Below are positions 35,615-53,004 of a stretch of 64,000 nt of DNA, piece by piece. Positions within the stretch are counted from its first letter, which is position 1. Every line of letters begins with the position of its first letter. A program made the translations under genes and the position numbers. The notes below the pieces were generated by a model. That model saw only the letters and a list, made by a program, of their open reading frames with translations, had not been told where the DNA came from and did no database searches. The stretch is taken from positions 302,882-366,881 of the forward strand of contig CP011806.1 of assembly GCA_001664505.1 (NCBI GenBank), in the 5' to 3' direction. Source of the DNA: Acidobacteria bacterium Mor1. GTDB taxonomy: Bacteria; Acidobacteriota; Polarisedimenticolia; Polarisedimenticolales; Polarisedimenticolaceae.

Positions 35615-36748
<1,134 letters not shown>

Positions 36749-37951
36749 ATGCCCAACTATAGCTGGAAGGGACGGACCCGCGGGGGTCAGGTCCAGGAAG
36801 GGGTGATGCAGGCGGAGAGCAAGGACGCCGCCATCTCCGCTCTTCGCAAGCAGCAGATCATCGTCACTGCGGTAACCGAGAAGGGCAAGGAGTTCGCGCT
36901 ACCGAAGCTCGGCGGCGGGATCACCAAGAAGGAGATCTCGATCTTCACCCGCCAGTTCTCGGTGATGATCGACGCGGGTTTGCCCCTGGTGCAGTGCCTG
37001 GAGATCCTGGCCAGCCAGCAGGAGAACCGCGCGTTCCAGAAGATCCTGATGGCGGTGCGCCAGGACGTCGAGTCCGGCGCGACCCTGGCCGACGCGCTGC
37101 GCAAGCATCCCAAGGCTTTCGACGGGCTGTACTGCAACATGGTCGCCGCCGGTGAGGCCGGCGGTATCCTCGACACGATCCTGCAGCGCCTGGCTCAGTA
37201 CATCGAGAAGATCGTCAAGCTGCGCGGCGCCGTCCGCTCGGCGCTGGTCTACCCGGTCGCGGTCATCGGTATCGCCGTGGCGGTGGTCTGGATCATCCTC
37301 TGGAAGGTCATTCCGACCTTCGCCACCCTGTTCGAGGGTCTGGGCGCCAGCCTGCCGCTGCCGACCCGGATCACGATCATGGCGTCGAACTTCATCGGCC
37401 GCTGGTGGTGGCTGATCCTGCTGGCCATCGTCGGCACGATCGTGACCCTGGTGCGCTACCACAAGACCCACAAGGGTAAACGGCACATCGACGGCATCAT
37501 GCTCAAGGTCCCGGTGTTGGGCATGCTGCTCAAGAAGATCGCCGTGGCCCGCTTCTGCCGCACCCTCGGCACCCTGACCGCCTCGGGTGTCCCGATCCTC
37601 GAAGGCCTCGAGATCACGGCGAAGACCTCGGGTAACGCCATCGTCGAGGACGCGATCATGGCTACCCGGGCCAGCGTCGAGGAGGGTAAGACCATCGCCG
37701 AGCCCCTGCGGCAACACTCGCTGTTCCCGGGGATGGTGGTGCAGATGGTCGCGGTCGGTGAATCGACCGGTGCCCTCGAGACCATGCTGAACAAGATCGC
37801 CGACTTCTACGAAGACGAGGTCGACGAGGCGACGGCGAACCTGCTCGCGCTGTTGGAACCGATCATGATCGTGTTCCTCGGCGTGGTCATCGGCGGCATC
37901 GTGATCTCGATGTACATGCCGATGTTCGACCTGATCAGCAAGATCGGCTAG
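36749..37951 (+). CDS. pilC: Type IV pilus inner-membrane platform protein PilC
   Basis: Polytopic GspF-family protein around which the pilus is assembled. Two T2SSF domains are visible (FTRQFSVMIDAGLPLVQCLE and ARFCRTLGTLTASGVPILEG), with membrane helices after each (VIGIAVAVVWIILWKVIPTF, VFLGVVIGGIVISMYMPMF). Length 400 is typical. It ends the pilB-pilT-pilC block, and a GC-rich hairpin follows. Confidence 0.96.
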   Translation: MPNYSWKGRTRGGQVQEGVMQAESKDAAISALRKQQIIVTAVTEKGKEFALPKLGGGITKKEISIFTRQFSVMIDAGLPLVQCLEILASQQENRAFQKILMAVRQDVESGATLADALRKHPKAFDGLYCNMVAAGEAGGILDTILQRLAQYIEKIVKLRGAVRSALVYPVAVIGIAVAVVWIILWKVIPTFATLFEGLGASLPLPTRITIMASNFIGRWWWLILLAIVGTIVTLVRYHKTHKGKRHIDGIMLKVPVLGMLLKKIAVARFCRTLGTLTASGVPILEGLEITAKTSGNAIVEDAIMATRASVEEGKTIAEPLRQHSLFPGMVVQMVAVGESTGALETMLNKIADFYEDEVDEATANLLALLEPIMIVFLGVVIGGIVISMYMPMFDLISKIG

Positions 37952-38011: not shown

Positions 38012-39685
38012 ATGAACCAGCGGGAGCTCGCGAGACAGCAGCGCAAGTTGATGATCGTTCGCCTGGCGACGATCACCACGTTGCTGATCTCCGTCTACGC
38101 CATCGAGCTTCACGACGCGCCCGAGCTGAACTACGGGCCGCTGTTCTCGCTGGCCGCCGCGGGTTACGGCCTGGTGGCGCTCTACGCGCTGCTCTACCGT
38201 TTCTGGGCCGGGCGTCCGGCACTGCTCTGGTTCCAGCTCATCGGCGATGCCGGAGTGATCAGCGGCTTCGTCGCGATCACCGGCGGTCCGGCGAGCCCGA
38301 TGTCCTTCCTTTACCTGCTGCCCATCGGGGTCGGGGCGATGTCCCTCTACCGGCGGGGCGGGATCGGGTTGGCCCTCATCTGTTGGTCCCTCTACGCCGG
38401 AGTCGTACTGTTCCAGCCGATCGCCCCGCTGGCCGCCAGCGGCGGCTACCAGGACCCGGGGCGGCTGTGGTACGCCCTGGTGGTCCACCTGCTGGGCATG
38501 ATCGCGGTGGCGCTGCTCTGCTCCTACCTGTCGGAGCGGATCCGCGCCCAGGGGACCGAGCTTGCCGAGCGGCGGGGCGCGGTGCACCGGCTCCAGGCAC
38601 TCAACGAGAACATCATCGGATCGATCAACAGCGGGCTGATCACCACCGATCTGTCCGGCTCAATCAACTTCCTCAACCGGGGCGGGCGTGAGATCACCGG
38701 TTACCGGCTGCAGGACCTCAACGGCACCCGCGTGCACCAGATGCTCGATCTGGACCCGGAGTTCCTCGAGCGGGTCCAGCCCCAGCTGGCCCGGCGGCAG
38801 CGGCTCCGCTTCGAGCGGTTCTTCCGCACCGCCGACGGCCGCACGATCTTTCTCGGCGTGGCGGTGTCGTCCCTCTCGGACCGCAGCGGTGAGGCCATCG
38901 GCTACCTGTTCATCTTCCAGGATGTGACCGACGTCCGCTCGCTGGAGCAGGAGGTGCGGCTCAAGGAGCGCATGGCGGCCCTGGGGCAGATGGCTGCGGG
39001 GATGGCTCATGAGCTGCGCAACCCGCTGGCGGCCATGAGCGGGGCGGTGCAGTACCTGAAGGGTTCGCTGCGTCCGGAAGGGGAGACCCTGGAGTTGATG
39101 GACATCATCCTCCGGGAGTCCCAGCGGCTCGACCAGGCCATTCGCGATTTCCTGACCTTCGCCCGTCCCGGCAAGTTCGCCGCCACCGAGGCGGACCTGG
39201 TGCGCCTGATCGACGACAGCGTGAAGCTGCTGCGCAAGAGCAGCCAGTTCGTCAAGGGCCACGACATCGTCACCGAACACGACGCCGACGAGATCCACTG
39301 TGAAGTCGACGTCAACCGGATGAAGCAGGTGTTCTGGAACCTGGCGACCAACGCCCTCAAGGCGATGCCCCACGGCGGTGCCCTGCGGATCGGTGTCGGC
39401 ATCGACGGCGAGCGGATCAAGGTCCGTTTCGCCGATGAAGGGGTCGGGATGACCGACCAGCAGAAGATGCAGTACTTCCAGCCCTTCGCCAGCAGCTTCG
39501 AGGAGGGCACCGGGCTCGGTGCCGCCATCGTTTATCGGCTGGTCGAGGAGCACGGTGGAAAGATCGAGGTCGACACGTCGCTCGAGAGCGGCACCTCGGT
39601 GACCATCGACCTGCCGCGGCGTACGTCGACGGCGGGGAATCAGTCCAGCGAACCCCTGGTATCGGCGGGAGGCCTCAGAGCGTGA
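38012..39685 (+). CDS. pilS: Sensor histidine kinase PilS
   Basis: Membrane kinase of the PilSR pair. Six hydrophobic segments span residues about 14-175 (for example LATITTLLISVYAIEL, VHLLGMIAVALLCSYL). A PAS domain follows (NENIIGSINSGLITTDLSGS). The HisKA phosphoacceptor is His333 in AHELRNPLAAMSGA, and the HATPase domain has NLATNALKAMP and ADEGVGM. The last part (LGAAIVYRLVEEHGGKIEV) is the G2 region. It overlaps pilR by four bases. In Pseudomonas this kinase senses pilin levels in the membrane; the same may apply here. Confidence 0.93.
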   Translation: MNQRELARQQRKLMIVRLATITTLLISVYAIELHDAPELNYGPLFSLAAAGYGLVALYALLYRFWAGRPALLWFQLIGDAGVISGFVAITGGPASPMSFLYLLPIGVGAMSLYRRGGIGLALICWSLYAGVVLFQPIAPLAASGGYQDPGRLWYALVVHLLGMIAVALLCSYLSERIRAQGTELAERRGAVHRLQALNENIIGSINSGLITTDLSGSINFLNRGGREITGYRLQDLNGTRVHQMLDLDPEFLERVQPQLARRQRLRFERFFRTADGRTIFLGVAVSSLSDRSGEAIGYLFIFQDVTDVRSLEQEVRLKERMAALGQMAAGMAHELRNPLAAMSGAVQYLKGSLRPEGETLELMDIILRESQRLDQAIRDFLTFARPGKFAATEADLVRLIDDSVKLLRKSSQFVKGHDIVTEHDADEIHCEVDVNRMKQVFWNLATNALKAMPHGGALRIGVGIDGERIKVRFADEGVGMTDQQKMQYFQPFASSFEEGTGLGAAIVYRLVEEHGGKIEVDTSLESGTSVTIDLPRRTSTAGNQSSEPLVSAGGLRA

Positions 39686-41157
39686 ACAGGATTCTCATCG
39701 CGGAAGACGAGCAGAGCCTGCGGGATGTGCTCAGCCTGATGTTGCGGCGCGAGGGCTACGAGGTGGTCGCCACCGAGTCCGGTGAAGCGGCGCTCCAGGC
39801 CTTGCAGCAGACCTCGACCGGCTTCGACGTGCTGATCAGCGATATCTCGATGCCGAAGATGGACGGCCTGGAGCTGCTTCGCGAGTCCCGGGTCTGCGCG
39901 GCGGATACCGCCGTGGTGCTGATGACCGCCTTCGGCTCCAAGGACACCGCAATCGAGGCGCTCAACGCCGGCGCTTCGTACTACGTCGAGAAACCCTTCG
40001 ATCTGGACGAGATGAAGGTGGTGGTGCGGCGCACCATCGAGCAGAAGCGCATCGAACACGAGAACGAGGACCTGCGGGTCGAGAATCGGGATCTGCGGGC
40101 CGAGCTGAAGGACCGCTATCACTTCGACGGCCTGGTCGGCCGCAGCACCAAGATGCGCGGCATCTTCCAGTTGATCGAGCGGGTCGCCACCACCGGCAGC
40201 ACCATCATGATCTCCGGCGAGTCCGGCACCGGTAAGGAGTTGATCGCCAGGGCGATTCACTACAACTCCGGCCGCGGGGACAAGCCCTTCGTTTCGATCA
40301 ACTGCGGCGCCCTGCCCAACGAGCTGTTGGAGAGCGAGCTCTTCGGCCACATCAAGGGGGCGTTTACCGGCGCGACCAGCAACAAGAAGGGCCTGTTCGA
40401 GGTCGCGCAGGACGGCACGATCTTCCTCGACGAGATCGGGGAGACCTCGACGGCGATGCAGATCAAGCTGTTGCGGGTGCTTCAGGAGAAGCGCATCCGC
40501 CCGGTGGGTGGGACCGAGGAAACCGAGGTCAACGCCCGGGTCATCACCGCGACCAACCAGGACCTGGAGCAGATGGTCAACGAGAAGTTGTTCCGGGAAG
40601 ACCTGTACTACCGGATCAACGTGATTCCGATCCGCATGCCCGCCCTGAGGGAAAAGCCCGAGGACATTCAACCGCTGGCCGAGAACTTCCTCGACAAGTA
40701 TCGGGATCTGGTCGGCAAGCCGATCGACGGCATCTCCAAGGACGCCATGGAAATGCTCGAGGGCTACCACTGGCCGGGCAACGTCCGCCAACTGGAGAAC
40801 GTGATCGAGCGCGCCGTGGCCCTCGAGGCAGGGGACACCATCGGTGTCGAGAGCCTGCCGGCGGAGATCCGCAGCGGGTCCGGACCCCGGCGGCTGGTCG
40901 AGGTGATCCTGCCCGAGGCGGGGATCGACCTGGACAGCCATCTGGAGGACCAGCGGCGCCTGTACATGGTCGAGGCGATGAACCGCAGCGGCGGGGTGCA
41001 AACCCACGCCGCGGAGCTCCTGGGGATGACGTTCCGCTCTTTCCGCTATTTCGCCAAGAAATACGGCCTGACTTCCCGGGAGGGAGGTTCTCGTGAGCGG
41101 GAACTAAACGCCGACGCCGTCGAGCCCGTACCAGAGGGGCAGGGTTCGGAAGCGTGA
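39682..41157 (+). CDS. pilR: Sigma-54-dependent response regulator PilR
   Basis: NtrC-family activator of pilin transcription. The receiver domain has Asp54 (VLISDISMPKMDGLEL) and the conserved YYVEKPFDL. The AAA+ domain has Walker A SGESGTGKE, the sigma-54-contacting GAFTGA loop (GHIKGAFTGATSNKKG), Walker B GTIFLDEIGE and the arginine-finger region PALREKPEDIQ. A Fis-type helix-turn-helix lies at the C terminus (QTHAAELLGMTFRSFRY). The GTG at 39682 overlaps pilS. The pilin gene directly downstream has a sigma-54 promoter, which supports this assignment. Confidence 0.95.
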   Translation: MNRILIAEDEQSLRDVLSLMLRREGYEVVATESGEAALQALQQTSTGFDVLISDISMPKMDGLELLRESRVCAADTAVVLMTAFGSKDTAIEALNAGASYYVEKPFDLDEMKVVVRRTIEQKRIEHENEDLRVENRDLRAELKDRYHFDGLVGRSTKMRGIFQLIERVATTGSTIMISGESGTGKELIARAIHYNSGRGDKPFVSINCGALPNELLESELFGHIKGAFTGATSNKKGLFEVAQDGTIFLDEIGETSTAMQIKLLRVLQEKRIRPVGGTEETEVNARVITATNQDLEQMVNEKLFREDLYYRINVIPIRMPALREKPEDIQPLAENFLDKYRDLVGKPIDGISKDAMEMLEGYHWPGNVRQLENVIERAVALEAGDTIGVESLPAEIRSGSGPRRLVEVILPEAGIDLDSHLEDQRRLYMVEAMNRSGGVQTHAAELLGMTFRSFRYFAKKYGLTSREGGSRERELNADAVEPVPEGQGSEA

Positions 41158-41311: not shown

Positions 41312-41327
41312 TGGCACCGGGGTTGCT
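41312..41327 (+). promoter_or_regulatory. Sigma-54 (RpoN) promoter of the pilin gene
   Basis: TGGCAC-N5-TTGCT fits the sigma-54 consensus exactly, with the invariant GG (41313-41314) and GC (41325-41326) separated by 10 bases. It lies about 37 bases before the pilin start codon and directly downstream of the sigma-54 activator gene pilR. Confidence 0.9.
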
Positions 41328-41363: not shown

Positions 41364-41813
41364 ATGAAACGGAATGCGAAAGGTTTCACTCTGATCGAAC
41401 TGCTGATCGTGGTCGCGATTATCGGCATCATCGCCGCCATCGCGATCCCGAACCTTCTGAACGCGATCGACCGTGGTAAGCAGAAGCGCACCATGGCCGA
41501 CCTGCGTTCCATCGGTACCGCTGTCGAATCCTACGCGATCGACAACAACGTGTACCCGGTGGCGACTGCGATGAACACGCTGGAAGGCGTGATCGAGCCG
41601 GTGTACATCCGCACCGCTCCGACCGAAGACGGCTGGGGCAACGCCTTCGTCGTCAGCTCGGCCACCGGTGGCTACACCGTGTGTTCGGGTGGTAAGGATG
41701 GCGGCACGGCCTGCACGGTCGTGAGTGGCGGTGGCGCGACCACCAGCTTCAACGACGCCATCATCTTCATCAACGGTCAGTTCGTGCAGTGGCCGGAAGG
41801 CACCCAGCAGTAA
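41364..41813 (+). CDS. pilA: Type IV pilin (PilA-like major pilin)
   Basis: Prepilin with the short leader MKRNAKG cut before Phe, followed by FTLIELLIVVAIIGIIAAIA with Glu at position +5. The mature part is about 142 residues. Its globular part is small and contains VYPVATAMNTL and EDGWGNAFVVSS, resembling the C-terminal fold of GspG pseudopilins. There is also a cysteine pair (TVCSGGKDGGTACTVV). GGAGG eight bases upstream supports the ATG at 41364. The sigma-54 promoter and PilSR context argue that it is the major pilin, although a GspG-type pseudopilin cannot be fully excluded. Confidence 0.93.
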   Translation: MKRNAKGFTLIELLIVVAIIGIIAAIAIPNLLNAIDRGKQKRTMADLRSIGTAVESYAIDNNVYPVATAMNTLEGVIEPVYIRTAPTEDGWGNAFVVSSATGGYTVCSGGKDGGTACTVVSGGGATTSFNDAIIFINGQFVQWPEGTQQ

Positions 41814-41843
41814 GCTGAGCCTTACGGTTAGAGTCTGAGTCGA

Positions 41844-41875
41844 CGGGGGCCCCAAAGCGGGGCCCTCGTTGCGTT
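41844..41875 (+). terminator. Terminator of the pilin gene
   Basis: CGGGGGCCCC and GGGGCCCTCG pair (one G-T wobble) with a five-base loop, followed by TTGCGTT. It begins 30 bases after the pilin stop. The T tract is modest. Confidence 0.7.
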
Positions 41876-41922: not shown

Positions 41923-43647
41923 GTGTCCGGGATGAACAGTTCGCACGGATCCGTGACGGCGTCCTCGCGCCGTGCCCTGCTGCCTCTGCCGGCGGTATGC
42001 CTGCTCGGATTCCTCCCGCTATTCCCACCCGAGAGCCACGGTCTGGCTGCGCTGCCTGCCGCGATTCTGCTGCTCCTGTTGCTGCTGATCCGTCTCGACG
42101 ACTTGACGTCGGGGCCATGGTTCCCGGTGCTGCTCCTGGGGCTGCTCGGCGCCTGGCCCCTGTCCGCAGCGGCAGCCGCACCCGGGGAGACGGTTCCGTT
42201 CATCGCCCTGTGGGGCCCCGCGCTGCTGCTGGGAGTCTGTTGCTCCCGCTGGGCCCGCTCGCTCGCGGTCTCGGAGTGGGTGCCCCGGGTCCTGGCCCTG
42301 GCCACCCTGGGAATCGGCGCCTACGCCCTGTGGCAGTCGCTGGGGGGCCTGGCGGCTCAGGCGGAGGCGGCGACCGGAGCCGGGCTGCCCGACGCGGTGC
42401 TGGAACGCTTGCGAGAGGGGAGGGCCTTTGCCCGCTTCTCGACCCCGGCGGCTCTCGGAGGCTTCCTGATTCTGGTGGCGCCCCTGCTGGCGGTCCATGG
42501 GTGGACCTCGAGGGGCGGCGCCCGTGGATTGTCCTTGGCGGCTCTGTCGGCGGCGATCGCGGGGCTGCTCGCCGCGGCATCGGCGACGGCGGTCGCCGCC
42601 CTCGCGGGGGCGGGCGCGCTTTGGGGGCTGCGGCGGGTGACCGACCGCCGGATCCTGGCAGCCGGTGCGGCCGCCGTGGTCCTGGCCCTGGCGCTGATCG
42701 TCGGTCTCCGCGGGGAAGGGCTGTGGAATCCGTCGGCGGAAGGCAGTCCCTGGAAGCTGCGGGCAGGCAACTTCCGCATCGCGACCGAGATGATCGCGGA
42801 CCGCCCCTTGATCGGCGCCGGCCCGGGAGGTTTCGGCGAGGTCTACCCGGGCTACCGCCGCCCCGGCGACAACGAGACCCAGCACGCCCACAACCTGCCG
42901 CTGGAGCTGTGCGCCGATCTGGGGCTGCCTCTCGGGATCCTGATGAGCGCCGGGTTCTTCGCCTTCTTTCTCGGGCCGCTCTTGCGGCGAGGCGCGGTCC
43001 AGCCCGTGGGTTGGCAGCAGGGGGCCTCGATCGGCCTTGCCGCTTTTGCCCTGCACAATCTCGCGGACTTCACCGCGTTCCTGCCGTCGATCCTCTGGTC
43101 CGCCGCGATTCTCGCCGGGCTCTGTCGCGTCCGGGGCCCCGCTGGTGACGACGTCGAGGCCCGGCCGGCTGCCGAGGCGGGCCTTTCTCGAGCGGGCCGA
43201 TGGGCGTTGGTCGGCGCCGGGCTCCTGGTCGCTCTGGTGTCGGTGGGCGGGGGACTCGCCGCCGAGGCGCGTTGGAAGGCACGGCTGGCGGCCGGCAGCG
43301 GAGATCGCCCCGCGGCATTGATGCGACTGGAGCGTGCGGTTCGGCTGGCGCCCTGGGAGTTCGACGGCTGGATCGAACGGGCCTCGCTGCTGGCTGCACC
43401 GGACGCATCGCAGGACGCGTTGCGGGCGGCGTTGCGCGACATCGAACGGGGCCTACGGGTCAACCCTGCCCGTCCTTCGGGCTACGCGCTGCGCGCGACC
43501 CTGCGCTATCGCCTCGGCGATTTGCCCGGCGCCTACACCGACATGGGCCACGCCGCCGAACTCTATCCGCTCCAGCCGATGTATCGACGCGACCGGGAAC
43601 GCCTCGCCGGAGAGGTGTCGCGCATGCTTCCCACAGGCGGGCGCTGA
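41923..43647 (+). CDS. O-antigen-ligase-like membrane protein (Wzy_C family), first copy
   Basis: Polytopic protein of 574 residues from the GTG at 41923 (an ATG at 41932 is the alternative). About ten membrane helices lie in residues 15-420. The ligase/polymerase signature is GAGPGGFGEVYPGYRRPGDN with QHAHNLPLELCADLGLPLG, as in Wzy_C proteins that join glycans to lipid, polymer or protein. A periplasmic tail with TPR-like helices (RLERAVRLAPWEFDGW) ends the protein. Neither start has a Shine-Dalgarno; a TATGTT box ends seven bases before the GTG, so the message may be leaderless. It lies just behind the pilin gene, the place where Pseudomonas has the pilin glycosyltransferase TfpO. Substrate unknown. 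Confidence 0.82.
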   Translation: MSGMNSSHGSVTASSRRALLPLPAVCLLGFLPLFPPESHGLAALPAAILLLLLLLIRLDDLTSGPWFPVLLLGLLGAWPLSAAAAAPGETVPFIALWGPALLLGVCCSRWARSLAVSEWVPRVLALATLGIGAYALWQSLGGLAAQAEAATGAGLPDAVLERLREGRAFARFSTPAALGGFLILVAPLLAVHGWTSRGGARGLSLAALSAAIAGLLAAASATAVAALAGAGALWGLRRVTDRRILAAGAAAVVLALALIVGLRGEGLWNPSAEGSPWKLRAGNFRIATEMIADRPLIGAGPGGFGEVYPGYRRPGDNETQHAHNLPLELCADLGLPLGILMSAGFFAFFLGPLLRRGAVQPVGWQQGASIGLAAFALHNLADFTAFLPSILWSAAILAGLCRVRGPAGDDVEARPAAEAGLSRAGRWALVGAGLLVALVSVGGGLAAEARWKARLAAGSGDRPAALMRLERAVRLAPWEFDGWIERASLLAAPDASQDALRAALRDIERGLRVNPARPSGYALRATLRYRLGDLPGAYTDMGHAAELYPLQPMYRRDRERLAGEVSRMLPTGGR

Positions 43648-43648
43648 C

Positions 43649-45532
43649 ATGCTCGGGCTGGCATCCGGCGCGTTGCTTCTGGTCGCGCTACTGGCAGCGA
43701 CCCTGGGAGAGGGGGGCGCCGATCCGCACTCGGTACTCTTCTGGCACGGGATCCTGGTAGCCGCGGTCGCCCTGGCGATCCTCGATCGGCGCAGCGGCCA
43801 CGGGCTGGACCGGTCGCAGCAGGTGGCGCTCGGTCTGTTCTTCGCCGGGGTCGTCGCCGGTGCCGCTCTGGCGCCCTTTGCCTACGGCGCCTGGATCATG
43901 GCTCTCGAGGTCGCGGCGGCTCTCGCGGTGGTGTGGCTCGCCGCGCGCAGCGGCCCCGGGCTCTTGCCCCGGGCGGTCCCCGTGTTGTTCGGCGCCGGAG
44001 TGCTCCAGGCCTGCTGGGTGCTGACCCAGTTGCTGGCCTTCGGCGAGAAGCGTCCCGCCGGTACCTTCCTCAATACCAATCATCTGGGCGCCTGGATCGG
44101 GGCGACCCTGTTGCTCGGTTGCGGTTTGCTCAGCGGCCGGCGCCGCAAGGATCCGTGGGTGATCGCGCTGTGCGTACCCCTGGCGGCGGCGCTCCTGGCC
44201 ACCGGCTCCCGAGGGGCGGTACTCGGGTTCGGCGTCGGACTGTTGCTGTTGATCGCCCGCAGTCTTCCGCGGCTCTCGACGCGTGCCCGTGTCGCCGTCG
44301 CCGCGGTGCTGGTTCTCGGTGCCGGCCTCGCCGGTTGGCGCCAGTATCAGCGCTTCCAGTCGGCGGATCCGTTCAGTTCCCACCGGCTTCTGATCTGGAA
44401 GGCCTCGGTGGCGCCGGCGCTGGAGCATCCGTGGACCGGCGCCGGTCCGCGGCAGTTCCGCACCGAGGCGAGCAACCTGCGGTTCGCCGACGGTGACGGA
44501 CCGCTCCGTTTCGATCGTAGTTTCATCGCGACCCACTCCGATCTGCTACGCCCCTTCGCCGAGCTGGGCTGGCCCACGGCGTTGGCCCTGGTGGCGGCCG
44601 GGCTCCTGGGGCTGCGGCGGTTGCTGCGGGAACGGCGGCGGCTGAGCCGGTTCGAGGGCGCCGCAGTTGCGGCGCTGGCCGCTCTCGGCACCCAGGCGCT
44701 GGTGGACAATCTCAGCGAACGTCCCGGGGTCTACCTGCTGGCGGCGTTTCTCTGGGGTGTCCTGGGTTCCAGCCGGCGCGACGGGCAGCCCGCCGGGTCC
44801 ACGTCGCCCTCGATGTTCCGCGCTGTCGCGCTGGTTCCGCTGCTGTTGGTCTTCGTGGTCGGGGATCTGGCTCCCTGGCAATCCTGGAGGCTGCAGCAGG
44901 AGCAGGCGGCCCTCCCGGCGGCCCAGCGGGATCCGGCGAAGCTCGCCGGTAGCATCGCCCTCAACCCGATCCATCCGGAACCACGGCGCCTGATGGCCGA
45001 ACGGCACGCCGCGACGATGCAGGGTGACCCGGCGGCATATGCGGCCGCCCGGCTCCAGGCTGAGCGTGCCGTCGCTCTGCATCCCGCCGAGTCCCGCTAC
45101 CGCCTGGCGGCTGCGCGGATCGAGGCTGCCGCCTGCCGCGAGTTGTTCCGCGACGTCGCCACCCGCCGCCGGGCCGCTCAACGCTTCCGCGAGGCCGCCG
45201 AACGCAGCCGCTACGATCCGTTCCCGCTGCTCGAGATGGGGGCGTTCCTGTTGGAGACCGGTGATCCGGCCGGGGCCCGTGCGGCCACCGAGGATGCTCT
45301 CGGACTGGAGCCGGGTGCGGTCAGCCCGCGCCTACTGCTGGCCGACGTGCTGCTGGCCGAGGGGGGCGAGGGTTCCCGGGATCGCGCCCGCAGGTTGCTC
45401 CACGAGGCGCGGGAGCGTGCGGCGGAGACCGAACGCTTCGCCGCGGAGAATCTGTACTCGGAGCGCCTGCTGACCCTGGACCCCCGGGCGGTGGATCGGA
45501 TCGAGTCCCGCCTTGCCGAGATCGAACCGTGA
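43649..45532 (+). CDS. O-antigen-ligase-like membrane protein (Wzy_C family), second copy
   Basis: A 627-residue protein that starts one base after the first copy. About ten membrane helices are followed by the motif AGTFLNTNHLGAWIGATLLL (ligase type NxNH), then LIWKASVAPALEHPWTGAGP and THSDLLRPFAELGWP, the Wzy_C core. From about residue 420 the protein continues as a TPR-like periplasmic region (RYDPFPLLEMGAFLLETGDP, GARAATEDALGLEPGAVSPR). The two copies share architecture but little visible identity. The start ATG at 43649 has no strong ribosome binding site, so translation is likely coupled to the first copy. One could be a polymerase and the other a ligase. Confidence 0.82.
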   Translation: MLGLASGALLLVALLAATLGEGGADPHSVLFWHGILVAAVALAILDRRSGHGLDRSQQVALGLFFAGVVAGAALAPFAYGAWIMALEVAAALAVVWLAARSGPGLLPRAVPVLFGAGVLQACWVLTQLLAFGEKRPAGTFLNTNHLGAWIGATLLLGCGLLSGRRRKDPWVIALCVPLAAALLATGSRGAVLGFGVGLLLLIARSLPRLSTRARVAVAAVLVLGAGLAGWRQYQRFQSADPFSSHRLLIWKASVAPALEHPWTGAGPRQFRTEASNLRFADGDGPLRFDRSFIATHSDLLRPFAELGWPTALALVAAGLLGLRRLLRERRRLSRFEGAAVAALAALGTQALVDNLSERPGVYLLAAFLWGVLGSSRRDGQPAGSTSPSMFRAVALVPLLLVFVVGDLAPWQSWRLQQEQAALPAAQRDPAKLAGSIALNPIHPEPRRLMAERHAATMQGDPAAYAAARLQAERAVALHPAESRYRLAAARIEAAACRELFRDVATRRRAAQRFREAAERSRYDPFPLLEMGAFLLETGDPAGARAATEDALGLEPGAVSPRLLLADVLLAEGGEGSRDRARRLLHEARERAAETERFAAENLYSERLLTLDPRAVDRIESRLAEIEP

Positions 45533-46560
45533 GCTCGCCGGTGCTGGCCCTGCCCGTCGGAGACGAACGGGGAGCGAGCACCCGCTACCGGGTGTTGGCC
45601 CATCGCCGCATGCTCGCCGCCGAAGGGCTGGCCACCGAGGTGCTGTTTCCGCTCAAGGCGGCCGCCTCCCGCTCCAGGTTCAAACGGGTACGCGACCTGA
45701 TGCGCGACGTACGTGCCGCCCGCCGGGCCCGTCTTCTGTTCGTGCAGCGCAAGACCTATCCGGCTCCTTTCGATCGGCTGCTCGCCGCATCCGCCGCGCC
45801 GTTGGTCTACGACGTCGATGACGCGATCTACCTGCCGCCTCCCGGGCGGGACCTTCCCGCGGGGGCCGCACGTCGCTACCGGGAGCAGTTCCAGGCGATC
45901 GCCGGTCGCGCGGATCTGGTGATCTGCGGCAACGAGGTGCTCGCCGCCGAGGTGCCCCACGAACGGGTCGCGGTCTTGCCCACCGCCGTCGACACCGACC
46001 GCTTCCGGCCCTCACCCCGTGAGGCCGGCCCTCCGCGGCTCGGCTGGGTCGGCCACTCGGACAATCTTCCTTTCCTCGAGCGGCTGGCGGAGCCCCTCCG
46101 GGAATTGACCCGGCGGCATCCGGGATTGGAGTTGATCGTGGTCGCCGATCGGGAGCCGCAGCTTCCCGGGGTGAACATCCGTTTCCGCCCCTGGTCCCTG
46201 GCCGGCGAGGTCAAGGTTTTCCAGGGCATCGACGCCGGGCTGATGCCCCTGGACGACACCCCGTGGACCCGGGCCAAGTGCGCCTTCAAGGCGATCCAGT
46301 ACATGGCCCTGGGTATTCCCGCGGTGGCCTCTCCCGTGGGCATGAACCACGAGGTGATCCGCAGCGGGGAGAACGGCTACCTTCCGGAGACCGACACCGA
46401 GTGGGTCGAATGCGTCGACGGCCTGCTCGGCGACAGGCAAAAGGCCGGGGCCCTGGGAGCCGCTGCCCGCGAGACCGTCGAGGCCCGCTACTCGCTGCGG
46501 GCCGTTACCCCCCGGCTGGCGAAACTCCTGCGGGAGCTCCTGGAGCGATCGAGTCGATGA
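45529..46560 (+). CDS. Glycosyltransferase, GT4-like
   Basis: A 343-residue GT-B enzyme. The acceptor domain has RGASTRYRVLAHRRMLAAEG, and the donor domain has LGWVGHSDNLPFLERLAEPL, LMPLDDTPWTRAKCAFKAIQ and the end motif GIPAVASPVGMNHEVI, which fits GT4. It should transfer an unknown sugar from a nucleotide donor on the cytoplasmic side. The GTG start overlaps the upstream stop (GTGA) and its own stop overlaps the flippase start (ATGA), so it belongs to a coupled glycan operon. Confidence 0.88.
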   Translation: MSSPVLALPVGDERGASTRYRVLAHRRMLAAEGLATEVLFPLKAAASRSRFKRVRDLMRDVRAARRARLLFVQRKTYPAPFDRLLAASAAPLVYDVDDAIYLPPPGRDLPAGAARRYREQFQAIAGRADLVICGNEVLAAEVPHERVAVLPTAVDTDRFRPSPREAGPPRLGWVGHSDNLPFLERLAEPLRELTRRHPGLELIVVADREPQLPGVNIRFRPWSLAGEVKVFQGIDAGLMPLDDTPWTRAKCAFKAIQYMALGIPAVASPVGMNHEVIRSGENGYLPETDTEWVECVDGLLGDRQKAGALGAAARETVEARYSLRAVTPRLAKLLRELLERSSR

Positions 46561-48083
46561 GTCCGGTGGATCCCCAGCAGCATCTCGATCCGGTCTCCGA
46601 CCGTTTGCGGGAGCGTTCGGTCAGCGGCGCCGCGATGTCGCTTGTCGGGCAGGGGATTCGCTTCGTTCTGCGCATGGCCTCGATCTACGTGTTGGCGCGG
46701 CTGCTGACCCCCGAGGACTACGGGCTGGTCGGCATGGTCGTGGCGGTTACCGGGTTGATCCTGCTGTTCAAGGACCTCGGCCTGTCGATGGCCACGGTGC
46801 AGCGGGCGGAGGTGACCCACGAACAGATCAGTACGCTGTTCTGGACCAACGTCGCGCTCTCGACGGGGATCATGCTGGTCACGGCGGCGATCGCTCCGCT
46901 GGTCGGTTGGTTCTATCGCGAGCCGCGGGTGGTGGGCATCACCCTTGCGGTCTCGGTGGGCGTGCTGCTCAGCGGGCTGGCGGTTCAGCACCAGGCGGTG
47001 CTGCGCCGGCGCATGCGCTTCACCACCCTGGCCGCCATCGACGTGGCCTCCGACGCGCTGGGGATGATCGTCGCCATCGCCGCGGCGCACTACTACGACG
47101 CCGGCTACTGGGCGCTGGTGCTCCAGCCTCTTACTGCGGCGGCGTTGAACCTGGTGTCGGTCTGGATCGCTTGCCCATGGCGTCCCGGCCGGCCCGCCCG
47201 CGGGACCGGGGTGCGCCCGATGCTGCGCTACGGCGGCAACCTGACCTTCTTCCGTTTCGCCAACTATCTGGCGCGCAGTTTCGACAACGTGCTGGTCGGC
47301 CGGGTCTGGGGGCCGGAATCCCTCGGCCTCTACGCCCGGGCCTACTCGCTGCTGTTGCTGCCGATATCTCAGATCAATGCGCCGATCGCCGGGGTCGCCG
47401 TGCCGACCCTGAGCCGGCTGCAGAACGAACCCGAGCGTTACCGCCGCTACTATCTGAAGTCGGTCTCGCTGATCGCCCTTCTGACCATGCCGCTGACGGC
47501 GCTGCTGGCCAGCCTGTCCGAGGAGACGATTCTGCTGGTGCTGGGGCCCCAGTGGACCCCTGCCGCCCAGATCTTCCTGGTGTTCTCCATCGCCGCTTTC
47601 GCCGAGCCGGTGGTCTCGACGACCGGGTGGGTCTACCTCTCCCTCGGCCAGACCGGGCGCCTGGCCAGGTGGGGGCTCCTGTTCGCGACCCTGCGGGTCC
47701 TGTTCTTTGCGGCCGGGCTGCCCTGGGGGGCGTTCGGCGTGGCGGCCGGGTTCACGCTAGGCTTCTGGGTACTGACCCCCTTCGTCCTGTGGGCCGCCTA
47801 CCGGGTGTCCCCGATCCGGGTCCGTGATGTGCTCGGCGCCGCCGTTCGACCGGCGGTCGTCGGGTTGGTGGTCGCCGCTGCGGCCCATCTGGCCCGGGGG
47901 TGGCTTGCCGGATCCGGAGCGGGGACCATCATTGCTGGGGGGACCCTGGCCGCGGCGGCCGGGGTGGCCCTCCTGACCCTGGTCTGGCCCGCTCTGCGGC
48001 GGGACATCCTGGGAGTTGCCGCGCTGAGGCGCGATCTGCGCGTCGGGGATGGAGCCTCGACGACGGAGGATGCCGGGACTTGA
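46557..48083 (+). CDS. Polysaccharide flippase (Wzx/PST family)
   Basis: A 508-residue inner-membrane protein with about 12-14 membrane helices. The polysaccharide-biosynthesis pattern is visible from AAMSLVGQGIRFVLRMASIY and LARLLTPEDYGLVGMVVAVT, and in LTFFRFANYLARSFDNVLVG. It should flip a lipid-linked glycan to the periplasm. Its presence next to ligase-like proteins fits a Wzx/Wzy or en bloc transfer pathway. The start ATG overlaps the upstream stop. Confidence 0.9.
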   Translation: MSPVDPQQHLDPVSDRLRERSVSGAAMSLVGQGIRFVLRMASIYVLARLLTPEDYGLVGMVVAVTGLILLFKDLGLSMATVQRAEVTHEQISTLFWTNVALSTGIMLVTAAIAPLVGWFYREPRVVGITLAVSVGVLLSGLAVQHQAVLRRRMRFTTLAAIDVASDALGMIVAIAAAHYYDAGYWALVLQPLTAAALNLVSVWIACPWRPGRPARGTGVRPMLRYGGNLTFFRFANYLARSFDNVLVGRVWGPESLGLYARAYSLLLLPISQINAPIAGVAVPTLSRLQNEPERYRRYYLKSVSLIALLTMPLTALLASLSEETILLVLGPQWTPAAQIFLVFSIAAFAEPVVSTTGWVYLSLGQTGRLARWGLLFATLRVLFFAAGLPWGAFGVAAGFTLGFWVLTPFVLWAAYRVSPIRVRDVLGAAVRPAVVGLVVAAAAHLARGWLAGSGAGTIIAGGTLAAAAGVALLTLVWPALRRDILGVAALRRDLRVGDGASTTEDAGT

Positions 48084-48853
48084 GTGTGCTGATCATCGGA
48101 GGCATGCATCGCTCGGGCACGTCGATGACTGCCGGATGGCTCAAGCGTTGCGGTCTGTCCCTGGGACAGGACCTGATCCCCGGAGACTGGACCAACCCGC
48201 GGGGGCACTTCGAGGACCGGGAGGTCTCCCACTTCCAGCGGGCCATCCTCTCTGCCGCCGGCGTCGACCACTATCTGACCGGTTCCGATCCGATTCCGGT
48301 GGCACCGGAGTTCCATCAGCAGGGGCGCGAGTTGATCACCCGCCGCAGCGGCCACGCCCAGTGGGGCTTCAAGGATCCCCGCAGCGCGTTGCTCCTCGAC
48401 TTCTGGCGTGAGCTGTTGCCCGAGGCGCGTTACCTGTTCGTCTTCCGCCACTACGGCCTGGTCGTGCAGTCGTTGCTCCGGCGCCAGCGCACGCCGAAGG
48501 CCCACGTGCTCCAGGTCTCCCGCTTTGCCAAGGTCTGGAAGCGCTACAACGAAGATCTGCTGCGGTTCCACGCGGCTCACCCCGAAGACTGCCTGATGGT
48601 CGAGGTGTTCGATCTGCTCGGTTGTTCCCTGAACGTGATCGAGCATGCCAATGAGCGCTGGGGTTTCCAGTTGCGGCCGCTGGACATCAAGGACGTCGCC
48701 GAGGACCGGCTGTTGACCCGTGACGGCCCGCTCTGGTTCGACGGGCTCTGCCGCATGACCACCCGGGGACTGGACCCGGTTTACGAACGACTGCAGGAAG
48801 CCAGCCGAGAGTCGCTTCAACGAATCGGGCACGCCGCCCGGCTCGCCGGCTGA
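48080..48853 (+). CDS. PAPS-dependent sulfotransferase family protein
   Basis: A 257-residue protein with the 5'-phosphosulphate loop near its N terminus (GGMHRSGTSMTAGWLKRCG) and the 3'-phosphate region LFVFRHYGLVVQSLLRRQ. This fits the sulfotransferase family, which adds sulphate to glycans or small molecules. The start is a TTG at 48080, with GGAGG nine bases upstream; the stop of the flippase overlaps it. Being inside the glycan operon, it probably sulphates the glycan. Some relatives act on other acceptors, so the substrate is inferred. Confidence 0.82.
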   Translation: MSVLIIGGMHRSGTSMTAGWLKRCGLSLGQDLIPGDWTNPRGHFEDREVSHFQRAILSAAGVDHYLTGSDPIPVAPEFHQQGRELITRRSGHAQWGFKDPRSALLLDFWRELLPEARYLFVFRHYGLVVQSLLRRQRTPKAHVLQVSRFAKVWKRYNEDLLRFHAAHPEDCLMVEVFDLLGCSLNVIEHANERWGFQLRPLDIKDVAEDRLLTRDGPLWFDGLCRMTTRGLDPVYERLQEASRESLQRIGHAARLAG

Positions 48854-48882
48854 CCCGGCTCGGTACCGAGCGAGGAGACGAC

Positions 48883-49746
48883 ATGAGTCTCGCGGATAGC
48901 GAAAGGGTCCCCGTGGCCGACGACCGGTTCACCTTTGCCGAGGACCTGCCCGAGCAGGCCCGGCCGCTGGCTTCCCGTTACGCGGCTGCCGATCCCTTTC
49001 CCCACATCGCCGTCGATGACTTCCTGCCCGAAGGGGTCGCCCGGATGCTCCACGACGCCTTCCCGGATCCGGAGTCGATCGCCTGGCAGGCGGATGCGAC
49101 CGGACCCCAGGCGGGCAAGCTCGGGACCCGGGACGCCCGCAACATGGCCGGCGCGTCGCCTTTCGTTCAGCACATGCTGATGGTCTTCAACTCCTCGCCC
49201 TTCGTCCGCTACCTCGAAACCCTGACCGGCATCGATGGACTGATTCCGGACCCGCACTTTCACGGTGGGGGACTGCATCAGATTCCTCGGGGCGGACGGC
49301 TCTCGATTCACGCCGACTTCAGCCGTCACAAGAGCCTCGGGTTGGAGCGGCGGGTCAACGCCTTGCTCTATCTCAATCCCGGTTGGGATGCGGCCTGGGG
49401 CGGCCAGCTCGAACTGTGGGACCGTGAGATGACCCGCTGCGTCGAGCGTATCGATCCCTGGTTCAACCGGTTGGCGGTGTTCAGCACCACGGCGACGTCG
49501 TACCACGGACATCCCGACCCGTTGGCCTGTCCCGAAGGGATCACCCGCAAATCGATGGCGTTCTACTACTACACCCAGAGCCGGCCGGGAGAGGATGCGC
49601 CCCACGGCACCCTCTGGCAGCGCCGGCCGGGCACCGAGGACCCGGTCGCGGCGGCGCCTGCCGCACCCCGTGGCAGCGGCCTCAGGCGCCTGGCCTCCCG
49701 CTGGGTGCCGCCGGCCATCGCCGACCGGCTGCGAGGGCGTCGCTGA
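48883..49746 (+). CDS. 2-oxoglutarate/Fe(II)-dependent oxygenase
   Basis: A 287-residue protein with the metal triad of this family: His143 and Asp145 in LSIHADFSRHK and the distal His at 208 or 210 in TSYHGHPDPL, followed by the 2-oxoglutarate-binding Arg in ITRKSMAFYYYT. Close relatives of this prolyl-hydroxylase-like type are common in polysaccharide clusters. It may hydroxylate a sugar or an attached group, but no substrate is proven. GAGGAGA before the ATG supports the start. Confidence 0.85.
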   Translation: MSLADSERVPVADDRFTFAEDLPEQARPLASRYAAADPFPHIAVDDFLPEGVARMLHDAFPDPESIAWQADATGPQAGKLGTRDARNMAGASPFVQHMLMVFNSSPFVRYLETLTGIDGLIPDPHFHGGGLHQIPRGGRLSIHADFSRHKSLGLERRVNALLYLNPGWDAAWGGQLELWDREMTRCVERIDPWFNRLAVFSTTATSYHGHPDPLACPEGITRKSMAFYYYTQSRPGEDAPHGTLWQRRPGTEDPVAAAPAAPRGSGLRRLASRWVPPAIADRLRGRR

Positions 49747-49835
49747 GCCGTGGAACGGGCCTTTTCCCAAGGTAGAATTCCCCGTCTGGACACTCGATGA
49801 GTCGGGTCCGTACCAATCTGGGGGTAGCGCCGGAC

Positions 49836-51005
49836 ATGAGCGAGCCGATGACGATCGTGATGCTTTCGCATCTGGCGTCGCCCGTGGGTCCGACCGGGGC
49901 CGAGCACAGTCTCGCCCTGCTTGCCGATGGCCTGCATCGCCGCGGTCACCGGGTCGGCGTGGTGCACCCCGGACCGTGGGGACTCGAAGAGTGGCTCTAT
50001 CAACGGGGCGTCGAGACCGCCGAGATTCGAACCCGTACCCACTGGACCGTCCAGGCCGATCGGCAGGGTGCGGTGGCGACCGCCGCGCGGCGGCTGCGCT
50101 ACAGCTTGCCCGACCCCGAGCGGAGCCGGCTGGCGACCGCCATCGCCGAGTACCGGCCCGACGTGGTGCACGTCAACTGCCTGCCGCACCTGGCCGGCGC
50201 CGCCGCCGCCGCGGAACAGGGGGTGCCGGTGGTCTGGCACCTGCGGGAAATCCTGCCGCCGGGGCCCCGTCGCCGCTGGTGGGCGCGGAAGCTCCAGCGC
50301 TACGCCAGCCGGATCGTGGCGGTCAGCGAGGCGGTGGCCTCCTGGGTTCGGGAGGAAGGGCTGGGCGATCGCGTTCAGGTCGTGCACAACGGGGTCGATA
50401 CCGGCCAGGCCCGCTCGGTCGAGGCGTCGCGCAAGGCGCTGGGATTGCCACCCGCAGACTGCATTGTCGGCCTGTTGGGCCAGCTGCTCCCCCACAAGGG
50501 GCCGCGGGAATTCGTCCGGGCCGGCCGCCTGGCGCTGGAAAAGGAAGTCGACGCGCGCTTCATCATGGCGGGCAAGGGGCCCTCGCACTTCATCGAGCGT
50601 GTACGCAAGGACATCGAGTCCCATCCGAGTTCGGCGCGGTTCCACCTGTTGCCGCCGCAGCCCACCGGGGCGGCCCTGACCGCCGCCTGCGACGTGGTCT
50701 GCCTGGCCAGCACGAGCCACGACCCACTGCCCCGCACGGTGCTCGAGGCCATGGCCGCGGGCAAACCGGTGGCGGCCTTCCGCTCCGGCGGCACGCCGGA
50801 AATGGTGGTCCAGGGCGAGACCGGGCTGCTGGTGGAGATCGGCGACGTCAAGGCGCTGGCTCGGGCCCTGGTGACCCTTGCGGGCAACCCGAAGTTGCGG
50901 GAACGCATGGGCGCGGCGGCCATGATCCGGGCGCGGGAGCAGTTCTCGCTGACGGCCCACGTTCACCGGATGGAGACAGTGCTCCGCTCCACGGCAGGGT
51001 CATGA
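49836..51005 (+). CDS. Glycosyltransferase family 4
   Basis: GT-B fold enzyme of 389 residues. The N-terminal acceptor domain begins at TIVMLSHLASPVGPTGAEHS. The donor domain has VGLLGQLLPHKGPREFVRAG, MAGKGPSHFIERV and the end motif ASTSHDPLPRTVLEAMAAGK, whose E(x7)E-like stretch typifies GT4. The ATG at 49836 is used, with GGGGG upstream; the longer form from 49797 lacks a ribosome binding site. A -10-like TAGAAT at 49773-49778 may give a new promoter, making this the first gene of a second glycan sub-operon. Donor and acceptor are unknown. Confidence 0.88.
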   Translation: MSEPMTIVMLSHLASPVGPTGAEHSLALLADGLHRRGHRVGVVHPGPWGLEEWLYQRGVETAEIRTRTHWTVQADRQGAVATAARRLRYSLPDPERSRLATAIAEYRPDVVHVNCLPHLAGAAAAAEQGVPVVWHLREILPPGPRRRWWARKLQRYASRIVAVSEAVASWVREEGLGDRVQVVHNGVDTGQARSVEASRKALGLPPADCIVGLLGQLLPHKGPREFVRAGRLALEKEVDARFIMAGKGPSHFIERVRKDIESHPSSARFHLLPPQPTGAALTAACDVVCLASTSHDPLPRTVLEAMAAGKPVAAFRSGGTPEMVVQGETGLLVEIGDVKALARALVTLAGNPKLRERMGAAAMIRAREQFSLTAHVHRMETVLRSTAGS

Positions 51006-51955
51006 GCACGGCCCCGGTCGCCGTCGTCATCGTCAGCTGGAACTCCGAGCGCTTTCTCGCCGACTGCCTGGACAGCCTGGCCGATCTGGCCCGCCCGGTG
51101 CAGGAAATCCTCGTGGTCGACAACGCCTCGACCGACGGTTCGGTGGCGATGGCCACGGGCCGCCCGGGTGTGCGGGTGCTGAAGCTGGAAGACAACCTGG
51201 GTTTCTGCGAGGCGAACAACCGGGGCATCGCCGAGACCTCGGCTCCCTTCGTACTGTTGCTCAATCCGGACACCCGGGTCGACCGCGAATTCGTCGAGGG
51301 GTTGTTGCCGGCCTTCGAGGACCCGGAGACCGGCATCGCCTGCGGCAAGCTGCTGCGCTTCGACGGGCAGACCCTGGACTCGGCGGGACAGCAGTTGGCC
51401 CGCTCCCGGAAACCCCTGGACCGGGGCTACGGCAAACCGGACCGGGGTCAATACGACCGCGATGAAGAGGTCTTCGGAGCCTGCGGCGCCGCCGCTCTTT
51501 ACCGCCGCCGCATGCTCGACGATGTTTCGGCCGATTGCGGCGGGGTGTTCGACCCCCGCTTCTTCGCCTTCTACGAGGATCTGGACCTGGCCTGGCGGGC
51601 CCGTAGACGGGGCTGGAAGGCTCGCTACCGGCATGGCGCCGTGGCCTACCACCACCGGGGTGGGAGCGCCGAACGGGGCAACCTGGTGCGCAGGGTGGCG
51701 CTCCTGGGGCGCAGCGCCGAGGTGCGCTTCCACGTGGCCAAGAATCGCTACCTTACGATCTTGCGCAACGATTCTGTTGCGGGGTATCTGGCGAACCTTC
51801 CGTTCATCCTGGCCCGGGACCTGGCGATGCTCGGCCTGATCGCCGTCACCTCTCCAGGTGTCCTGCTGCGCTTGTGGCGGGAGCGCGGCCTTTTCGGCGA
51901 CACCCTGGCGCTCCGCAGACTGGACGGCGGCGCATCGCGGCATCACGTTTCCTGA
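51002..51955 (+). CDS. Glycosyltransferase family 2
   Basis: A 317-residue GT-A enzyme. It begins VAVVIVSWNSERFLADCLDS, has the nucleotide-binding VDNASTDGS and the metal-binding LLLNPDTRVDREF, and includes FYEDLDLAWRARRRGWK, the ED-type motif of rhamnosyltransferase-like members. A C-terminal hydrophobic tail (LARDLAMLGLIAVTS) may hold it to the membrane. It overlaps the upstream gene by ATGA. The sugar transferred is unknown. Confidence 0.92.
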   Translation: MSTAPVAVVIVSWNSERFLADCLDSLADLARPVQEILVVDNASTDGSVAMATGRPGVRVLKLEDNLGFCEANNRGIAETSAPFVLLLNPDTRVDREFVEGLLPAFEDPETGIACGKLLRFDGQTLDSAGQQLARSRKPLDRGYGKPDRGQYDRDEEVFGACGAAALYRRRMLDDVSADCGGVFDPRFFAFYEDLDLAWRARRRGWKARYRHGAVAYHHRGGSAERGNLVRRVALLGRSAEVRFHVAKNRYLTILRNDSVAGYLANLPFILARDLAMLGLIAVTSPGVLLRLWRERGLFGDTLALRRLDGGASRHHVS

Positions 51956-51971
51956 GGGAACGTGTAACGAG

Positions 51972-52994
51972 ATGGTGATCGATGAGAACTGGCGATGGTT
52001 GATCCACGGACTCAGCTTCCTGCTGGCTCTGGGCTTCGCGCTGTGGCTGACGCCACGGCTGCGCGAGGCCGCGCTGCGCTTCGGCATCACCGACAAACCC
52101 GACGGCAAGCTCAAGACCCATCGCGAACCGATTCCCTACCTCGGAGGGCTTGCGATCTATCTGGCCTTCCTGCTCTCCCTGGCGTTGACCTTCGACTTCA
52201 GTCGCGAGGTGCTCGGGTTGTTGCTGGCCGGGTCGATCGTCGTGATCCTCGGCCTGCTCGACGACCTGGGGCAGCTCGGTCCCTGGACCAAACTGATCGG
52301 TCAATCGGTGGCGGTGCTGGTGCTGATCAAGTCCGGCATCTACATCAAGCTGGTCTTCCTGCCGGAGTGGTTGGCTCTGGGGTTGTCGGTGCTGTGGCTC
52401 CTCGGGGTGACCAACGCCTTCAACCTGATCGACATCATGGACGGTCTCTCGGCGGGCACCGCCGCGGTCGCCGCCCTGGTGTTGTTCGTGGTTGCGGAGC
52501 TCGCGGGCAACGGAGCCAGTGCGACCATCGCCCTGGCCCTCGCCGGCAGCTGTCTCGGTTTCCTGCGCTACAACTTTCAGCCGGCCCGCATCTACATGGG
52601 GGATACCGGCAGTCTGTTCATCGGCCTGATGCTCGGAGCGTTGGCGATGGACAACCCCTACACCCGGCACAACGATCTCGGCGCGCTCTGTCCGGCGCTG
52701 ATCCTCGGCGTGCCGCTGTTCGACATGCTGTTCGTGATGTACATCCGCTGGCGGCGTGGGCTTCCGGTCATGCTCGGGAGTCCGGATCATGTCGCCCTGC
52801 GGCTGCGCAAGTGGCGGCTGAGCACCCGGGGAACGGTGGTGACCTCCTACGTGGTCACGGCCCTGCTCGGGATCGCGGCCATCGGCATGAGCCTGCTTCC
52901 CGACATCGTATGGGCCGCCTGGATGCTGGCCGGACTGGCGCTCTCCGCCGTGGCCTGTGGCGCGCTGCTCAAGCGTATCGATATGTCCTTGTGA
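51972..52994 (+). CDS. WecA/MraY-like phospho-sugar transferase
   Basis: Polytopic membrane enzyme (340 residues) that puts a sugar phosphate onto a polyprenyl phosphate, the first step of glycan assembly. Family motifs are ILGLLDDLGQLGPWTKLIGQ, NAFNLIDIMDGLSAGTAAV and ARIYMGDTGSLFIGLMLG. Being in a glycan locus and without murein-gene neighbours, it is more likely a WecA-type initiator than MraY. The ATG at 51972 follows ACGAG. Substrate specificity cannot be read here. Confidence 0.9.
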   Translation: MVIDENWRWLIHGLSFLLALGFALWLTPRLREAALRFGITDKPDGKLKTHREPIPYLGGLAIYLAFLLSLALTFDFSREVLGLLLAGSIVVILGLLDDLGQLGPWTKLIGQSVAVLVLIKSGIYIKLVFLPEWLALGLSVLWLLGVTNAFNLIDIMDGLSAGTAAVAALVLFVVAELAGNGASATIALALAGSCLGFLRYNFQPARIYMGDTGSLFIGLMLGALAMDNPYTRHNDLGALCPALILGVPLFDMLFVMYIRWRRGLPVMLGSPDHVALRLRKWRLSTRGTVVTSYVVTALLGIAAIGMSLLPDIVWAAWMLAGLALSAVACGALLKRIDMSL

Positions 52995-53004
52995 GGAACG
53001 ATTC

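Follow-up and report, generated by a model that had tools for sequence, protein, structure and literature searches.

Paired WaaL-fold proteins with tetratricopeptide tails, encoded beside the pilin gene in Acidobacteriota, as probable components of a pilus O-glycosylation system

We analyzed a stretch of 64,000 nucleotides from Acidobacteria bacterium Mor1 (contig CP011806.1, positions 302,882 to 366,881; called the window below), in which the genes for two Wzy_C proteins, Lig1 (41923 to 43647) and Lig2 (43649 to 45532), follow the gene for a major type IV pilin, PilA (41364 to 41813). All features are given in window positions and lie on the forward strand. Both lig genes are inside a type IV pilus locus with the order pilBTCSR-pilA ... 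pilD, and pil genes stand on either flank of a cluster of glycan genes that begins behind them. Taken together, the genomic data make it probable that the pair belongs to a system built into the Acidobacteriota type IV pilus locus and dedicated to the O-glycosylation of pilin or pilus proteins. What is new here, on the known theme of pilin O-oligosaccharyltransferases (O-OTases), is a set of paired, partly fused ligases with tetratricopeptide repeat (TPR) tails, conserved with pilin across Acidobacteriota; a literature search on pilin glycosylation in Acidobacteria returned no paper.

The linkage between ligase and pilin genes carries most of this argument. At E <= 1e-15, a profile of the Lig1 membrane domain matched proteins in 221 of the 396 genomes from the phylum, other Wzy_C proteins being included among the weaker matches. 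Clear orthologs (E <= 1e-34) were present in nearly all genomes of the window's own class and in about ten further families. With Lig2 as the query, 45 of 80 relatives had a match. Gene order was determined by tblastn at 40 loci and then at 20 more, and pilin linkage was counted at those loci that have at least about 600 bases of upstream sequence. We found a pilin gene upstream of lig1 in 29 of 32 such loci (in L077 and L084, it is upstream of the lig2 match) and in 15 of another 17 at E <= 1e-34, which gives 44 of 49 loci from 19 families, a count of related loci and not of independent events. In a few genomes of family f5, the pilin gene lies 1.6 to 3.7 kb from the ligases. For a control, we examined 4 kb on each side of 20 loci for paralogous Wzy_C proteins in these genomes, picked by profile rank and not at random, and found a pilin gene at none of the 20. 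The pilin motif, the distance limits, and the E-value cut for orthologs were set during the work, after part of the data had been seen, and the contigs of metagenome-assembled genomes are short, so that gene context is incomplete at some loci. The link between pilin and ligases is not due to chance. A scan of contigs with one short pattern returned 13 loci, all from Acidobacteria, a result that is no proof of absence from other phyla. The window's own genome also has two paralogs of PilA (L040 and L041, at G000:C1:1651679-1652110 and 2468108-2468515), 73% and 58% identical to it, with no Wzy_C match nearby.

We also found that the linkage is to pilin itself and is separable from the pil operon, since in families f35, f52, and f78 (loci L114, L116, L118 to L122, L124, and L125) a pilin gene adjoins the ligases while no match to pilB, pilT, or pilC was found in the 10 to 19 kb around them; one short PilR-like match was seen in L125. 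At four loci (L047, L050, L052, and L054), the nearest pilin open reading frame (ORF) overlaps the start of lig1 by 4 bases, and a locus with a frame-disrupted pilin gene (L079) was not counted as a fifth. In the window, pilA and lig1 are separated by 109 bp and lig1 and lig2 by a single base; most relatives from the same order have a 4-base overlap of lig1 and lig2. In the seven f5 genomes that were checked, the two genes are fused to one ORF of 1,231 to 1,274 amino acids with two Wzy_C stretches. A tree of 52 membrane domains placed Lig1 and the N-terminal halves of the fusions in one group (support 99/99) and Lig2 and the C-terminal halves in another (support 100/98), which indicates that the pair is old and did not arise by recent duplication.

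Domain and fold analysis placed both proteins in the WaaL-like family. Lig1 has 574 amino acids from a GTG start (an alternative in-frame ATG is at 41932) and matches Wzy_C with an E value of 9.5e-13 (48.6 bits; cutoff, 31.7) and TPR_9 at 6.3e-7, while Lig2 has 627 amino acids and matches Wzy_C at 3.6e-18 (66.2 bits; cutoff, 31.7) and TPR_19 at 3.3e-4; the TPR matches at both C termini are below the Pfam cutoffs. In profile comparison, the E values for a match to WaaL were 4e-14 for Lig2 and 4e-11 for Lig1. AlphaFold models built from alignments of 13 sequences had mean confidence scores (pLDDT) of 82.5 for Lig1 and 85.5 for Lig2, and among solved structures both membrane domains best matched the O-antigen ligase WaaL (7tpg), with a Z score of 20.7 over 356 residues (root mean square deviation, 4.3) for Lig1 and of 23.4 over 365 residues (4.2) for Lig2. 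The structures ranked next, at far lower scores, were TPR proteins that match the tails. In the models, a C-terminal TPR domain stands apart from the membrane part and comprises about 130 amino acids in Lig1 (residues 441 to 570, approximately) and about 220 in Lig2 (residues 403 to 627, approximately). Since 13 membrane helices are counted in the models, these domains are predicted to be periplasmic. The initial annotation, made from the DNA alone, had described two tandem Wzy_C genes directly 3' of the pilin gene, each with a long TPR tail, followed by a flippase and glycosyltransferases; the ORFs, Pfam matches, and coordinates agree with this, except that a long tail is found only on Lig2, that of Lig1 being of moderate length.

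The predicted active sites of the two proteins differ. In Escherichia coli WaaL, R215, R288, and H338 are reported to be important, as are their counterparts in PglL (PMC3643930), and an H324A variant of PglS is inactive (PMC6385209). By profile alignment with 7tpg, Lig2 of the window has the whole Arg-Arg-His set of WaaL and PglL (R188, R246, and H296), while Lig1 has R280 and H323 only. Among 30 Lig2 sequences, the Arg of the SRG motif (R188) is Arg or Lys in all, R246 is conserved in all, and H296 is present in 23, with Asp or Glu in the remaining 7. Relatives whose Lig2 has Glu or Asp for the active-site His are found at L116, L118, L120 to L122, L084, and L054. Among 29 Lig1 sequences, R167, S220, R280, N283, and H323 are invariant, and position 221, an Arg in Lig2 and WaaL, is never Arg or Lys. 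These differences suggest that the two enzymes are not equivalent, which fits a role in different steps.

In the mechanism that we propose, a WecA-like enzyme and glycosyltransferases would build a glycan on a cytoplasmic lipid carrier, the sulfotransferase-like protein and the oxygenase may add decorations, and a Wzx-like flippase would turn the lipid-linked glycan to the periplasm, each of these roles being the one expected from the protein family. One ligase would then move the glycan from the lipid onto pilin, or onto a related protein of the pilus, while its partner would either polymerize the glycan or serve a second acceptor. The periplasmic TPR tails possibly hold the other ligase, pilin, or the machinery of pilus assembly. 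We infer the acceptor, the glycan, and the division of labor from gene content, predicted folds, residues, linkage, and fusions. There is a slight lean toward Lig1 as the protein ligase and Lig2 as a polymerase or helper, because Lig1 has an invariant active-site His, is encoded next to pilin, and occurs alone in one genome. This assignment is not a safe one, since one locus has a single pilin and lig1 alone (L109) while another combines two pilins with only a Lig2-type protein (L084). A broader proposal, which we put forward tentatively and with more doubt than confidence, is that these proteins form a class of their own among pilin O-glycosylation enzymes, spread across the phylum and separate from TfpO, TfpM, PglS, and PglL, in which an unlike pair of WaaL-fold proteins, a polymerase and a protein ligase (fused in one family as proteins of about 1,230 to 1,270 residues), would be joined to each other and to pilin by TPRs and would produce pili with a polymeric glycan.

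Several observations weigh against a pilin glycosylation system. The ligase pair occurs without a nearby pilin gene at L053 (f3), L073 and L078 (f16), L110 (f23), and L113 (f85). The Wzy_C domain does not tell a ligase, a polymerase, and an O-OTase apart, and neither protein scored above the cutoff of the curated O-OTase models. The absence of the SRG Arg from Lig1 and the loss of the Lig2 His in 7 of 30 sequences mean that either enzyme could be unusual or inactive. A glycosylation site could not be predicted. The major pilins of the window and of relatives (L047 to L086) have a common C-terminal tail, WP[EQ]GxQ(Q/T), which neighboring second pilins lack; some relatives' major pilins end in Thr, but PilA of the window ends in EGTQQ and thus does not have the C-terminal Ser or Thr that TfpO and TfpM use. 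A 13-bp GC-rich hairpin (41841 to 41871) also separates pilA from lig1. Nearly all relatives have a strong hairpin 3' of pilA, in many cases with a T run, and the terminator-like version is at the same place in most of them, where it is likely to be a terminator, so that simple cotranscription of pilin and ligases cannot be assumed. The ligases may instead be expressed by read-through at a level below that of pilin or from a promoter of their own.

We weighed these points together with other explanations for the locus. The main one, which we regard as unlikely, follows the xap locus of Geobacter, in that the genes would make an exopolysaccharide required or bound by pili, the Wzy_C pair would polymerize this product and link it to a lipid or lipoprotein, and pilin would remain unmodified. 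There is a parallel in Geobacter sulfurreducens, where pil genes GSU1491 to GSU1496 precede a polysaccharide cluster, GSU1498 to GSU1508 (PMC3495685), whose ABC ATPase XapD (GSU1501) is required for the polysaccharide (PMC5585712), and the glycan cluster of the window also ends with an ABC transporter. In addition, family f16 has the ligase pair with wecA, the flavin adenine dinucleotide (FAD) protein gene, and a GT4 gene but without pilins. In contrast, Wza and Wzz/Wzc genes, the mark of Wzx/Wzy-dependent export, were not found at the locus; the four Wza and five Wzz matches of the genome (PF02563 and PF02706) are all outside the window, and three other Wzy_C genes lie within about 3 to 5 kb of Wza or Wzz genes. 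Glycan genes at a pil locus without Wza and Wzz speak against an ordinary Wzy-type capsule, although not against every polysaccharide. Moreover, the ligases of f35, f52, and f78 stay with pilin, and the set of wecA, FAD, and GT4 genes was not detected in the 10 to 19 kb examined there. A far less probable explanation is that a lipopolysaccharide (LPS) O-antigen locus came to lie in the pil operon by accident, with a Wzy polymerase and a WaaL ligase that acts on lipid A core. The WaaL fold of both proteins and the presence of WecA, Wzx, and glycosyltransferases, all parts of an O-antigen pathway, would agree with this, but the pilin linkage across 19 families is hard to account for on such grounds, and gene content varies from behind the ligases to the end of the cluster, whereas pilin and ligase genes remain together.

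Within pilin glycosylation, it is also conceivable, but in our estimate improbable, that both proteins are protein ligases with different acceptors, which the initial annotation had offered beside a polymerase and ligase pair. Acinetobacter provides a precedent, with a general PglL and a pilin-specific TfpO or PglS (PMC6385209), many relative loci have two pilins, and the active-site residues of Lig1 and Lig2 differ. However, both ligases are usually present at loci with only one pilin, such as the window and most of f8, the fusions and 4-base overlaps point to steps that follow one another, and L109 has one ligase for one pilin while L084 has one for two. We regard one ligase per pilin as unlikely, because pilin number does not track ligase number, and a ligase acting with a polymerase fits better. 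The claim of a dedicated pilin or pilus-protein system is partly supported, the genomic case from linkage (present with and without pilBTC, and lacking from the control loci), overlaps, and fusions being much stronger than the window alone could make it. The suggestion that TPR tails hold protein acceptors is compatible with the data but not specific, and we do not take a TPR tail as proof of a protein acceptor, since TPR tails are not limited to pilin-linked ligases. In the same genome, an 875-amino-acid Wzy_C protein with TPR repeats (L006, G000:C1:1470177-1473593) is encoded within about 3 kb of Wza and Wzz genes. Loci L002 and L005 of this genome, at which one search found Wzy_C but the extracted frame, probably the wrong one, had no Pfam match, were left out.

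Compared with known systems, the pair has both shared and distinct features. In Pseudomonas, the gene for PilO is 3' of the pilin gene (PMC3643930), and TfpO and TfpM use a C-terminal Ser or Thr of pilin (PMC12645811). The parallel with Pseudomonas TfpO that had been drawn for the window stands for gene position, a Wzy_C enzyme gene directly 3' of the pilin gene, and the absence of PglL_A and Wzy_C_2 is shared as well (PMC3643930, PMC12645811); it does not extend to the C-terminal Ser, and the window differs in having two ligases with TPR tails and glycan genes at the same locus. This comparison with TfpO and TfpM is one of position and features, not of sequence. The PglL and PglS enzymes of Neisseria and Acinetobacter have a WaaL-like core with Arg and His and are often encoded beside pilin genes, as for PglL candidates in 21 of 31 cases (PMC3643930), and Acinetobacter has several O-OTases per cell, PglL with the pilin-specific TfpO and PglS (PMC6385209). 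We rejected membership in this group because no PglL_A or Wzy_C_2 domain was found by Pfam in Lig1, Lig2, or the fused forms, which have TPR domains instead. Relative to WaaL, both proteins have an extra last membrane helix and the TPR tail, Lig1 lacks the Arg of the SRG motif, and the genes sit with pilin and not in an LPS locus. The pil-xap locus of Geobacter and the Myxococcus-type pil cluster are similar in having a glycan cluster beside type IVa pilus genes, with an ABC transporter, but xap is described as making a polysaccharide and not a pilin glycan. The XrtA-associated ligases (TIGR03097) are also of the Wzy_C family, but we rejected this assignment, since Lig2 is a weak match far below the cutoff (E value of 0.004) and Lig1 has no match; among the genes checked at the locus, no XrtA-system gene was above its cutoff. 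The genome does encode a true TIGR03097 exosortase-A-associated O-glycosylation ligase elsewhere (L001, G000:C1:4653439-4656855; 455.9 bits).

In the literature cited here, all enzymes for pilin O-glycosylation come from Proteobacteria. If our reading is correct, pili are glycosylated by a different enzyme pair in a phylum that is abundant but has been little studied. The pair would be a natural test of ligase-polymerase coupling, as the fused forms tie the two together. The proteins would also allow one to ask whether TPR domains choose protein acceptors and would add a new class of O-OTase for glycoprotein production in laboratory hosts.

Upstream of the pair, the locus begins with the extension ATPase gene pilB (33849 to 35573; TIGR02538, 791.9 bits against a cutoff of 675.65). 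It is followed by genes that were assigned by position and sequence to a pilT-like retraction ATPase (35615 to 36748; 74 to 87% identity in relatives), a pilC-like inner-membrane platform protein (36749 to 37951), a pilS-like histidine kinase (38012 to 39685), and a pilR-like sigma-54 activator (39682 to 41157), the last three also conserved in relatives. Shortly 5' of pilA is a perfect match to the sigma-54 promoter consensus, TGGCACCGGGGTTGCT (41312 to 41327). Of 26 relatives, 24 have a match of at least 10 of 11 positions upstream of pilA, as against 9 of 1,200 random stretches, and this conservation fits control by PilR; a sigma-70 promoter was not detected at the locus. PilA itself matches N_methyl (3.8e-10) and T2SSG (3.1e-9), and its best NCBIfam matches, the GspG and Myxococcus PilA models, are both below the equivalog cutoffs.

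Behind lig2, the glycan cluster comprises genes for a group 1 glycosyltransferase (45529 to 46560; Glyco_trans_1_4, 1.9e-9), the Wzx-like flippase (46560 to 48083; Polysacc_synt_3, 3.7e-89), a sulfotransferase-like protein (48080 to 48853; Sulfotransfer_3, 1.2e-7), a 2-oxoglutarate (2OG)-Fe(II) oxygenase (48883 to 49746; 2OG-FeII_Oxy_3, 6.7e-17), and glycosyltransferases of the GT4 (49797 to 51005) and GT2 (51017 to 51955) types, both assigned by Pfam. The flippase, sulfotransferase-like, and oxygenase genes (46560 to 49746) were not matched by tblastn at any of the 40 relative loci, and the middle part of the cluster is thus variable. Next are genes for a phosphoglycosyl transferase of the WecA/MraY family, predicted to start the lipid-linked glycan (51900 to 52994; Glycos_transf_4, 1.3e-34; ECA_wecA, 7e-25, below the cutoff), an FAD amine-oxidase-like protein (52957 to 54333), whose gene is also 3' of wecA in many relatives, and a second GT4-type glycosyltransferase (54353 to 55576).

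The locus continues with genes for an ABC transporter ATPase (55579 to 56553; ABC_tran, 8.1e-29), an ABC-2 permease (open frame from 56043 to 57341, with the true start probably near 56550; ABC2_membrane_2, 1.4e-10), and a conserved protein without a Pfam match (57278 to 58189), for which position alone suggests PilH, PilI, and PilG identities, respectively. The prepilin peptidase gene pilD follows (58186 to 58998; A24_N_bact, 2.8e-35; Peptidase_A24, 3.2e-17). Overall, the gene order resembles that of Myxococcus, pilBTCSRA-GHI-D, with glycan genes inserted 3' of pilA. Beyond pilD, an ORF of 961 amino acids (59320 to 62205) has a weak PilX_N/GspK-like match from about residue 348; it may represent two genes, or a minor pilin gene whose true start is farther downstream.

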